Of a stretch of 25,414 nt of DNA, positions 11,031 through 15,600 are shown piece after piece. Origin of the DNA: Elusimicrobia bacterium HGW-Elusimicrobia-2. GTDB taxonomy: Bacteria; CG03. The stretch covers positions 1-25,414 of the forward strand of contig PHAM01000027.1 of NCBI GenBank assembly GCA_002841685.1. The letters run 5' to 3'. The stretch's first letter is position 1; the number at the start of each line of letters is the position of its first letter. The translations under genes were made by a program, and so were the position numbers. The notes below the pieces were generated by a model. That model ran no database searches, was not told the DNA's origin, and was given only the letters and a program-made list of their open reading frames with translations.

Positions 11031-11043
11031 CAACCTTCGGTTG
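11031..11043 (+). other. Hairpin in the gap before the REC-GAF kinase
   Basis: CAACC (11031-11035) and GGTTG (11039-11043) pair around TTC. It lies in the 131-base gap 10952-11082, which otherwise shows no gene. No T-tract or clear promoter is seen. It may be a leader structure upstream of the kinase gene; the evidence is weak. Confidence 0.25.
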
Positions 11044-11082
11044 TCGGTGAGACGGAAGACGGTGAAAAATGGAGATAAATAT

Positions 11083-12690
11083 ATGAACAGAAAAATACTG
11101 GTTGTTGATGATGAAGGATCAATAAGAGAAGTTTGCGCCAGGATACTGCGGACCGCTAAATATGAAGTGGATACAGCTGGCGGAATAAGTGAAGCTATGG
11201 GAAAATTGAGATCCGCCGACTACGGGCTTGTTCTCACGGATCTGAGAATGGGGGAAGACCGGGGTGAAGATCTGATCAAGATGGTGAAAGAGAGATCGCC
11301 AGAAACGGGCGTAATAGTAATGACATGCTATGCGGAAACACAAAATGCCGTTGAATGCATACGCTCCGGAGCCGCCGATTATCTGCCCAAACCTTTTGAG
11401 ATGGATGAACTTATCCGGGTTGTCGAAAGATTTTTCAAGACGAGACATCTGGAGAATAAAGTGAGCAGCCTCACTGATATTGTCGGGCTTTACCGGATCA
11501 CTCTCGCTATAGGCAAGCTAAAACCTCTGGATGAGGTTTTAGACCTTATTCTGAAAACTGCCGAAGAACAGCTCGCCGCCGACGGGGGCTCTATAACTCT
11601 GTGGAACGAGGATGAAAAATGGCTTATCGTCACGACCGCGTGCGGCGAGGACAGGGAAAAAGCTCTCGGCAAAAAAATCCGCCTCGGAGAGAGGGTGTGC
11701 GGTTATGCCGCCGCCAAGCGCGAACCGGTTATTGTTCACGAGGAACTGAATAAAGACGCCCGTTTCAGGGGTGAAAAAACTTACAACGGGGTGAAGTCGG
11801 GGATAAGCGCTCCGATGATCCTTCAGAATAAGCTGATAGGCACTTTGAATCTGAAAAGAACGAAGACGGATAATAAATTTACTCAAACCGACCTTGAAAG
11901 AGCTTTTGTTCTCGCTCAGATCGCGGCCCTGGCGATTTCCAACTCAAAAATCTATGAAAAAATGAAGGGACTGTCAGAACTCAAAACGAAATTTTTGTCA
12001 AATGTGTCGCATGAGCTCAGAACGCCTCTTACGGCGATAAAAGGCGCAGCGGATTTATACGAAAAATTAGAGAACGATGAAGGCGGAAGAAAAAAAATCA
12101 TGGCCATCGTCAAAAACAATACCATCAGAATGCTTGTTCTGGTGAAAGACCTTCTGGATGTGGCGGAAATAGAAAGAGACGTTATTAAATTGACAAAAAC
12201 CGAAACGGATATATGCCTGTGCCTCGCCAACTCCATAGCCGCCGTTAGAAACAGGGCAGAAGAAAAAAATATACGCATTAAATACAAAAAGGACAAACCG
12301 CTTTTCCTCCTTTGCGACGGCGTCAGAATGGAACAGGTTTTTATCAATATACTGGACAATGCCTTAAAATTTTCTCCGGAGGGTAGCGAAGTTTCCGTCC
12401 GCGTTTCAGTTTCCGGTGAAAAAGCGGAAATAGTTTTTTCCGACAGCGGCCCCGGAATAATTGATGCAGAACGGTTAAAGGTGTTTGACAGATTTTACCA
12501 GACGGGGAATTCCCTTTTTCACAAAGCAAAAGGTTTCGGTCTGGGGCTCGCAATAGTTAAACAGCTTGTGAATAAGCATGGGGGGACAGTCGAAACACGC
12601 GCACGGGGAGCCGGGGAAAAAGGCACGGAATTCATCATAACTATGCCTCTGTTGCCGGGAACCGCTAAAAACAAAAGGGGAAAAACTTGA
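11083..12690 (+). CDS. Soluble hybrid kinase REC-GAF-HisKA-HATPase
   Basis: 535 residues from the ATG at 11083 (GGAG eight bases upstream); a TTG at 11041 only adds a poor 14-residue leader. Receiver at 3-118 with Asp53, Thr81 and Lys103 (PKPFE); GAF domain at about 135-290; HisKA with FLSNVSHELRTPLTAI and phosphoacceptor His310; HATPase with the N-box QVFINILDNALKFSP, G1 DSGPGI and G2 GFGLGLAIV, ending near 525. There is no transmembrane helix or signal peptide, so it is cytoplasmic. Having the receiver N-terminal to the kinase suggests it is an intermediate that receives phosphate or is gated by another kinase, with GAF sensing a small ligand. Probable partners are the HTH-REC and lone REC proteins nearby. 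Confidence 0.92.
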   Translation: MNRKILVVDDEGSIREVCARILRTAKYEVDTAGGISEAMGKLRSADYGLVLTDLRMGEDRGEDLIKMVKERSPETGVIVMTCYAETQNAVECIRSGAADYLPKPFEMDELIRVVERFFKTRHLENKVSSLTDIVGLYRITLAIGKLKPLDEVLDLILKTAEEQLAADGGSITLWNEDEKWLIVTTACGEDREKALGKKIRLGERVCGYAAAKREPVIVHEELNKDARFRGEKTYNGVKSGISAPMILQNKLIGTLNLKRTKTDNKFTQTDLERAFVLAQIAALAISNSKIYEKMKGLSELKTKFLSNVSHELRTPLTAIKGAADLYEKLENDEGGRKKIMAIVKNNTIRMLVLVKDLLDVAEIERDVIKLTKTETDICLCLANSIAAVRNRAEEKNIRIKYKKDKPLFLLCDGVRMEQVFINILDNALKFSPEGSEVSVRVSVSGEKAEIVFSDSGPGIIDAERLKVFDRFYQTGNSLFHKAKGFGLGLAIVKQLVNKHGGTVETRARGAGEKGTEFIITMPLLPGTAKNKRGKT

Positions 12691-15600
12691 AGTTCCGCCG
12701 TAAGCAAACGCGTCACTTGCTATTCGGAGCGGGCCATATGAGTGAGGGGTTTTGCCTCGTTCCCGAAACGAATTGGCAGCGAACCGCATACGTGAGCGGC
12801 CGTCTACGGATAGCAAGCGACGCGTATGTTCTTGCTTATTTGATATTTTTTGCTTTTTTACCCGCTATGGCCTCGGCCTCCAAAACCGTTCAGGAAAAGG
12901 ACGCGGCAGCTTTCTCGCAGGGGGAATTTAGCGGAACTCTCGCTTACGGTGACAGGATATACTGCGAAAACCGCTGGAGCGCCCTCAACGGCAATATAGG
13001 CGCTCTGACTAACGGCAGGGCGGCTTACGGGGACAAAGTGATCCTTTTCGGGGGAAAATCTTCCACATCCGCTATGGTATTGCACAACACTACATACGCT
13101 TTTAATCCGGCCTCGGGTTCATGGGATGAGCTAAGCGTTTCCACCGCTCCGTCCAAACGCATAAGTTTCGCCATGGAGGGAGACGGAAACGGCAAAATCG
13201 TTTTTTTCGGCGGTTATGACGGTTTGAATGTTTTTGACGACACATGGCTTTTTTCAGAAAACAAATGGTCAGGCGTGGCCTGCTCCACGACGCATCCTTC
13301 CGCCCGCATGGGCGCGGCATCAGCAAAACTTTCGGCGGATAAGATCATTCTTTTCGGCGGGAAAAACGGCCTCTCTATTTATTCGGACACATGGATCTTT
13401 AATATTGCGGCCTCGTCCTGGTCGCTTCTCAATCCGCCTCTTTCGCCGGCGGCGCGGGCAAACCATGCCATGGCCCCCGCGGGAGAAGGAAAAGTGCTGC
13501 TATACGGCGGTGAAAGCGGGAGCTATCTAAAGGACTGCTGGATTTATGATGACAGCTCCGCTTCCTGGGCGGAAATAGATGTTTCCGCCTCAAATCCGGG
13601 GCAAAGGAGCGCCGCGGCTATGGTTTATGATTCCGGGATTGAAAGAATTATACTGTTCGGCGGAGAGGTGGAAACGCTGGGCGAATACAGCTACAACAAA
13701 GCCCTGTGGATGTTTAATCCCGTATCTCCGGCCTGGACGCAGATTAGCGCCCTGAACGCCGATCCCGACAAACCCAATGGCCGACGTCAGCACATATTCT
13801 GCCACAAACCCGGATACGGCAATATTCTTTTCGGCGGCGACACGGCGGAAACAACTTTTCCGAACAATAAAATATTTTCCGATCTTAAAAAATATGTGAT
13901 AAATTCGTCCGGCACTTACACGACGAAAATTTATGACACCGGCGTTTCGGTCAATCCCGTTGAATACAAAAGCTTCTGGCGTTATTTCGCCGGCGCGGGC
14001 GATATAAAATATCAGATCGCGGCATCATCCGATCCCGCCGGCCTTAGCTACACCGGGCCAACCGGCGCGGATTCCTATTACACCGACAGCCCTCTGACGC
14101 CGGAAACATCCCGCGACGGCGGAAGATATTTCAGCGTGAGGTTTTTTCTTTCATGCGTTCCCGGGAATGTTTCCTCTTTTTACTTATCCGAACTGAACAT
14201 GAAATACAATCACCTGCCGGAGGATCCCGTTCTGTACGCGAATCCCATGAAAGACGGAGATTCCATTTTTCAGTCATCCAACGAGAGGGCATGGTTTTAC
14301 TGGTTCAACGCCATTGACCCCGACGAAGATGAGCATTCGCACTCTTATGAGCTGCGGCTGTCAACATCGCCTGATTTCGGGCTTTACATCTCATCATCGG
14401 GCATTCCCTGCCAGGAAGGCATAACTTATTCTTACTACCATCCCGCTGCGTTTTATCCTGAGGGAAAATATTACTGGAAAGTGCGCGCATCGGACGATTA
14501 CGGCTCCAGCGGATTCTCGGATGTGTGGAGCTTTTATGTTGACACAACGGCTCCTTCGGCTGTCACCGACCTGACAGCGGAGAAAATCCTTGACAGCCCC
14601 GGGTCGGTGTCGCTGTCCTGGACCTCAACCGGCGACGACGCTACGACGGGGGATATTATCGGGGGAGAGATACGCGTACAACGGAAAAAATGGATACCTC
14701 TCACCGTCTGGTACGCGGCGGGGCAGATTGAAAAAATAATATCCACCTCTGTGGCCCAGGGCGAACGGCGCTCTGTCATCATAGACGGCCTGGACGACGG
14801 CGCCTCGTATTATTTTGTCGTCGCCTTGAAGGACGATGTTATAGATACCAACAGGAATCTCGGCTCTATTTCCAACAACGCTTTTTCATGGACGCAGTCG
14901 CCTCCGGAAATATTATCCGTCACTTCGCCAGCGCAGTGTGATATCCTCTCGGGGACAGCCGGAGTATCGTATTCCCTTTCCGACGCCGACAAGCCGGAAG
15001 ACGAAATCGCTGTTTCTGTGTACTTAAGCACAAATTCTATGGTTTTATGGCACGCAATCGCGTCTGATATCGCCGACGGCACGACATTTTTCTTCTTTGA
15101 TACGCTGGCCTTCCCGAATTCGGATTTCTGCAATATAAGAGTGACAGCGTCCGACAGAGCGGGGCTGAGCGGCGAGAAAATATCGGATGTGTTCTTTATA
15201 CGGAATCCCAATTATCCGCCTTCCGTTGAATTCACCGCGCCCGGGGAAAATGACAATCTGACAGGCGAGGTGTGGGTGAGCTGGGAAATAAGCGATGGCA
15301 ATCCGACAGACACGCATTTAAGCAGCTTGAGCATATCAACAAATTCAGTGAACTGGATTATGGTCTCCGGGAATATTTCCGACGCCTATGTGCCATTCAA
15401 CAGCCGGCTTTTTAAAGACGGGACATATTATCTCAAAATAGCGGCCCATGATTCGCCCGCAGACCCGCTGACGGGGGAGGCGGTAATACAGGTATCAATA
15501 CTGAACGGCAACACGAAGCCTGAAGCTTTTTCTCTTATCTCCCCCGTCTCCGGCTCGGTCCTCAACAGTGAGGAAGTCCCCTTCGCCTGGAACGAAGCCG

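Follow-up and report, generated by a model that had tools for sequence, protein, structure and literature searches.

In-frame mobile palindromes are known mainly from Rickettsia, and how their hosts tolerate them is a standing question. The DNA analyzed here (the window: 25,414 nt, on one contig, C67, in the 1.78-Mb genome G000 of Elusimicrobia bacterium HGW-Elusimicrobia-2) raises that question again: an earlier note, made from the sequence alone, had pointed to a palindrome lying in frame ahead of the signal-peptide core of a Kelch protein and had proposed that it is a mobile element in a lineage unrelated to Rickettsia. Does this element move and, if it does, how can a protein gene absorb it? 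We consider it likely that the palindrome is a MITE-like, non-autonomous hairpin that moves, and that its in-frame copies last because signal peptidase cuts them off. The element would then offer a testable answer to the question of tolerance: landing where the protein will be trimmed.

The palindrome at the start of the Kelch gene

The host gene (Table 1) encodes Kelch repeats, Ig/fn3-like domains and a C-terminal FlgD-Ig domain (Pfam). Its TTG start (12687) overlaps the TGA stop of the kinase gene upstream; this stop lies 14 nt 5' of the palindromic insert and 17 nt 5' of the left arm. The length first given for the insert and its open frame both hold, with the end at 12827 rather than 12828, and the signal-peptide core expected on its 3' side is there, directly after 12827. 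This core has its homologue in MNKKFFSFLIFVFLPANLFASA, the plain signal peptide of the orthologue in G006, a genome from another genus.

Table 1. Features at the 5' end of the Kelch gene (positions in the window)
Feature	Position	Strand	Basis
Upstream response regulator-GAF-histidine kinase gene	11041..12690	+	ORF list, Pfam
Kelch host gene, 1394 aa	12687..16871	+	ORF list, Pfam
Palindromic insert, 123 nt = 41 codons, open frame	12705..12827	+	Limits as drawn by the earlier reader
Left variable arm ACGCGTCACTTGC	12708..12720	+	Pairs with right arm at 12/13 positions
Conserved core of the repeat family, 92 nt	12721..12812	+	nhmmer, alignment of copies
GGAG and in-frame ATG inside the element	12726..12740	+	Sequence; orthologue alignment
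Right variable arm GCAAGCGACGCGT	12813..12825	+	Complementary to left arm
Signal-peptide core and candidate cleavage region VLAYLIFFAFLPAMASAS	12828..12881	+	Hydropathy, homology to G006 orthologue

The stem originally drawn, with 25 of 31 positions paired, is well matched by RNA folding. The minimum free energy predicted for 12705-12828 is -60 kcal/mol, against a mean of -38.6 for shuffled sequences (z -5.46); none of 200 dinucleotide shuffles folds as stably as the real sequence, and the outer part of the hairpin stem contains 24 pairs. Comparison of the copies described below shows the family layout to be the conserved core with variable, mutually complementary arms of ~13 nt or more on its two sides, the whole element measuring ~140 nt.

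The insert is common to three species of the genus: G003 and G001 carry it at the same place, in G001 with 79% nucleotide identity and with the frame preserved through indels. The expectation of insert-free Kelch orthologues was thus borne out in part, by the G006 orthologue with its short signal peptide but not by these two; the G005 orthologue (no clear short start) and that of G007 (which aligns only downstream) are uninformative and were left out. No nucleotide-level empty site for the Kelch copy was found in the related genomes.

A structured repeat family within one bacterial class

The search for further copies in the genome and its relatives, as the earlier note had advised, was productive. 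The element gives 23 blastn matches in G000, and a covariance model places it at ~23 distinct places there, at 16 in G003 and at fewer in G001 and G002; copies are thus present in all three other species of the genus, and a profile search (nhmmer) recovered 45 among loci from the four species. The covariance model also matches four more genera of the class (one match in G004, 24 in G005, 12 in G006 and 34 in G007), among which another family of the class is represented. These matches are mostly full length and diverged: the order of the core motifs is kept, and the stem sequence is specific to each genus. Copies stand at the ends of several G006 contigs, which is what near-identical repeats would be expected to cause.

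Beyond the class, the covariance model had no match in eight further genomes of the phylum (G008-G015). The exact core pattern has only three isolated matches among 84,980 GTDB r220 species genomes and one in IMG/VR, collections that may omit records of the window's own or very near genomes; these four are no more than expected by chance and were rejected as copies. So far, then, the palindrome family has been found in only one bacterial class.

The majority of copies occupy short gaps, with a gene end no more than 20-60 nt away. In G005 and G007 (L080-L119, L133-L138) most closely follow a gene's 3' end and run antisense to that gene, an orientation bias that is not obvious in the window's genus. 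Many G005 copies (L100-L119) have a conserved piece, CAGACCAAGGGTCTGCAGCTACATT, directly upstream, itself partly palindromic, and in two species copies are found joined to a second short hairpin repeat, which is TCTATGAAATCCCCGGGACTTAGTCCTGGAGATT-like (L020:3100-3180, L066:11370-11420). The G003 Kelch copy (L030 / L052:10361-10491) contains an extra GACAATGCATAAGGCCAAGCATAATTGCAGGCGAAGCCT-like stretch of 39 nt (13 codons) inside the core, and an intergenic G000 copy (L023:3000-3127) has such a stretch at the same core position; this variant amounts to a longer loop and keeps the reading frame.

Among 31 aligned copies, 25 of the 36 pairs include double changes, and 94.3% of cells are paired in the fixed structure. 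Cells changed on both sides number 125, against a shuffled mean of 35 that none of 500 shuffles raises to the observed value, with the proviso that cells are not independent events because the aligned copies include orthologous pairs. Shifting the 3' partners by 1-3 columns lowers pairing from 94% to 31-45%. Individual pairs make the same point: columns 52-67 alternate between A-U and G-C (13 and 13 copies) and columns 89-97 between C-G and G-C (18 and 13), each recurring at unrelated loci. At the level of the alignment, these substitutions show that the predicted fold is maintained through compensatory change.

Movement into sites vacant in sister species

The lptD gene of G000 has a clean in-frame insertion of 126 nt (42 codons) with the direct repeat CCATCCG on both sides. 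The insertion is absent from the 94% identical G003 gene and from lptD of G002, and so was most likely gained in G000. A second site, C33a, is empty in G003 and G002 and carries the repeat ATCATT, whose ancestral form is visible in G001; a third, C33b, is empty in G003, G002 and G001 and carries TTCAT. Target-site duplications, for which the earlier note had asked, therefore have candidates of variable length (5-7 bp), confined to these three clean sites. New copies have appeared among genomes diverged by about 5% or less. Genome comparison shows the element to be mobile, inserted at sites vacant in sister species, and the original proposal, that such a palindrome has moved in frame into a gene of a non-Rickettsia lineage, is supported by the ~23 copies, the empty sites and the insert-free Kelch gene of G006.

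Shared sites are also remodeled. Near-identical cores stand in opposite orientation at C81/C91, C82/C17 and C21/G001-C179, other shared sites have different cores inside similar arms, and deletion remnants are seen at C54_7940 in G003 and in BatD of G002. At L017/L059, L012/L056 and L020/L064 the core is flipped between sister species with the arms largely kept, that is, an inversion within the palindrome.

The arms outside the core vary among copies and match within a copy (mean score 9.2 vs. 5.4 for cross-copy flank pairs). Such copy-specific complementary flanks might suggest insertion into pre-existing palindromes, an idea that was rejected at C33a and C33b because, at these clean sites, the arms lie within the inserted DNA and are absent from the empty sites. 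The complementarity of new arms may reflect either inherited, co-varying arms or template-switch correction during replication of the hairpin; derivation of the arms from an inverted copy of the target was considered as well and is hinted at by weak matches in single cases (C6, lptD).

Could the element instead be a conserved functional RNA, a regulatory or mRNA-processing hairpin at gene starts or junctions with both fold and position under selection? The strong covariation, the class-wide presence, the many copies within 20-60 nt of gene ends and the retention of the Kelch copy in three species all fit such a role, and a -60 kcal/mol hairpin directly after the start codon should influence translation. 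Set against them are the gain of new sites within so little divergence, interiors that are swapped or inverted at orthologous sites, stem sequences that differ among genera, host genes with no common pathway, and zero Rfam matches at the gathering threshold within the window; taken together, these make a functional RNA unlikely.

Placement ahead of signal-peptide cores

If the element moves as a selfish hairpin, where can it enter a protein? Every copy was followed in every frame, a frame being counted as read-through if it ran through the core and then for at least 100 codons more; antisense frames were excluded, as were genes that have a start codon of their own beyond the element, and hydropathy and homology served to identify signal peptides. 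The copies in CatA-like, TPR, RadA and IMPDH open reading frames were set aside on these grounds, the start codon following the element; CatA-like, RadA and IMPDH are cytosolic genes behind a copy.

Six gene families of the genus are read through: Kelch (three species), an SBP_bac_5 peptide-binding lipoprotein with the lipobox LQGC (two species), LptD, BatD (two species, with the element in opposite orientations), a BatE-like TPR/SH3 protein, and an uncharacterized exported protein (two species). In all of them the element follows the start codon and precedes the hydrophobic core of the signal peptide, so that 45-69 residues precede the core, compared to 3-25 in element-free orthologues. The same placement recurs in G007, from another family, in a TPM-domain protein, in an uncharacterized exported protein and probably in a HEAT-repeat lipoprotein. 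In-frame cases are few, with six gene families in the genus and two or three more in G007; six signal-peptide hosts out of six would arise by chance with a probability of ~2e-4, a figure that assumes signal peptides in about a quarter of genes and leaves out the short target within each gene. As far as the sequence pattern goes, it shows that in every gene whose conserved frame crosses a copy, the element stands after the start and before the signal-peptide core. This repeated placement, the class-wide spread and the strong covariation are new relative to the earlier note.

In BatD of G003 (L054:8923-9150), two tandem repeat segments appear to stretch the n-region to ~69 residues, and the second of them resembles the variant arm with CGGACTTGCAGCTCCGG of L024, L053 and L063.

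The placement might also be taken as co-option, with the elements serving as extended signal-peptide n-regions or translation-initiation modules of exported proteins. All the read-through genes are predicted to be exported, the Kelch insert has persisted in G001 at 79% identity with its frame kept through indels, and the in-frame ATG at 12738 within the Kelch copy, with GGAG at a good spacing (8 nt upstream), is a possible alternative internal start for the Kelch protein. That GGAG is lost in G001, however, as the orthologue alignment shows; elements are read in frame in either orientation, giving different peptides, so that no peptide is conserved; insert-free orthologues exist; and the pattern is explained by tolerance alone. 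We judge co-option to be distinctly improbable.

It is very improbable, too, that the element is solely intergenic and that the long reading frames are miscalled upstream extensions. On average 3.1 of 6 core frames are open, above the 2.3 of 6 in a first-order control, and in the four kinds of gene set aside above a start does follow the element, both as a miscall would have it. For lptD, the SBP_bac_5 lipoprotein and the BatE-like gene, orthologues that lack the element nevertheless share the upstream start, as does BatD of G002, whose element is only a remnant, and Kelch, SBP and LptD have no usable start with a basic n-region after the insert.

A mobile hairpin probably removed with the signal peptide

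The reading that we favor, a mobile hairpin tolerated where it is trimmed away, would work as follows. The element would insert mainly at gene junctions, and about half of the frames through it would be open. Within proteins, an insertion would be tolerated only if it fell in the n-region of an export signal, because signal peptidase would remove the segment (~40 extra residues) and leave the mature protein unchanged; purifying selection would thus leave in-frame copies only where the extra residues go with the signal peptide. The element would otherwise be selfish, and its fold would be conserved because mobility needs it. On the modeled fold, a hairpin at the start of the mRNA could possibly affect translation as well. 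There is a small chance that n-regions are a recurrent safe landing zone for in-frame mobile DNA in the class and that some of the inserts there, those of Kelch and the peptide-binding lipoprotein, now function as extended n-regions or as translation modules with which export is tuned.

The least probable alternative is a REP/RAYT-type system, in which REP-like hairpins are moved by a Y1 (IS200-like) transposase: G000 does have two Y1_Tnp genes and the element is palindromic, dispersed and close to gene ends, but, in a transposase screen that covered Y1_Tnp only, none was found in the element-rich G005 and G006 (24 and 12 matches), Y1/IS200-type genes are present in genomes without the element, no copy adjoins or flanks either Y1 gene of G000, and the element is ~140 nt long with duplications; a Y1 transposase as the mobilizer is not supported.

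The mobile hairpin adds a strongly covarying, structured repeat family to a sparsely annotated class, and it carries a warning for annotation: long n-regions in this class may be repeat insertions. Independent events, empty sites and sister-species orthologues make tolerance, export and effects on mRNA directly testable.

Comparison with known systems

Autotransporters have extended signal peptide regions, with an unusually long n-region ahead of the hydrophobic core and conserved peptides; the extra residues here are, in contrast, a repeat read in different frames. Long inverted repeats also occur within protein-coding genes of nematomorph mitochondria; these differ in being mitochondrial and, in the part of that paper drawn on here, have no link to signal peptides (PMC6649704). 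The element resembles REP/BIME sequences with RAYT transposases in being a dispersed palindrome close to gene ends, and differs in being larger and in not tracking Y1 transposase genes.

Bacterial MITEs such as ERIC/RU-1, YPAL/RU-2, Correia/NEMIS and RUP are non-autonomous repeats of 100-200 bp with a long stem-loop, target duplications and open frames fused to genes (PMC2229807, PMC2759123). The present family is MITE-like in its length (~140 nt), its ~23 places in G000, its fold (z -5.5), its empty sites and its candidate duplications at three sites. Unlike MITEs, it has arms (inverted repeats) that differ from copy to copy, it is class-specific, and no conserved terminal repeat or, with Y1_Tnp alone screened, cognate transposase was found. 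In the literature on palindromes inserted in signal peptides, the sole related precedent that we found is the Yersinia repeat RU-2, which forms part of one predicted signal peptide, that of YPO1552, a single case with no pattern (PMC2759123).

A close parallel in behavior is with the Rickettsia palindromic elements (RPE) and the coding palindromes of Wolbachia, hairpin repeats of 105-146 bp that are found in frame in protein genes as well as between genes (PMC2229807, PMC10969869). The likeness is an analogy of behavior only: as with RPE, the element inserts in frame in protein-coding genes and the host gene is kept. Target duplications are listed as unknown for RPE, whereas here there are candidates of 5-7 bp; and RPE are reported from genes for metabolic or conserved proteins such as gmk, whereas read-through copies here are found only before signal-peptide cores.
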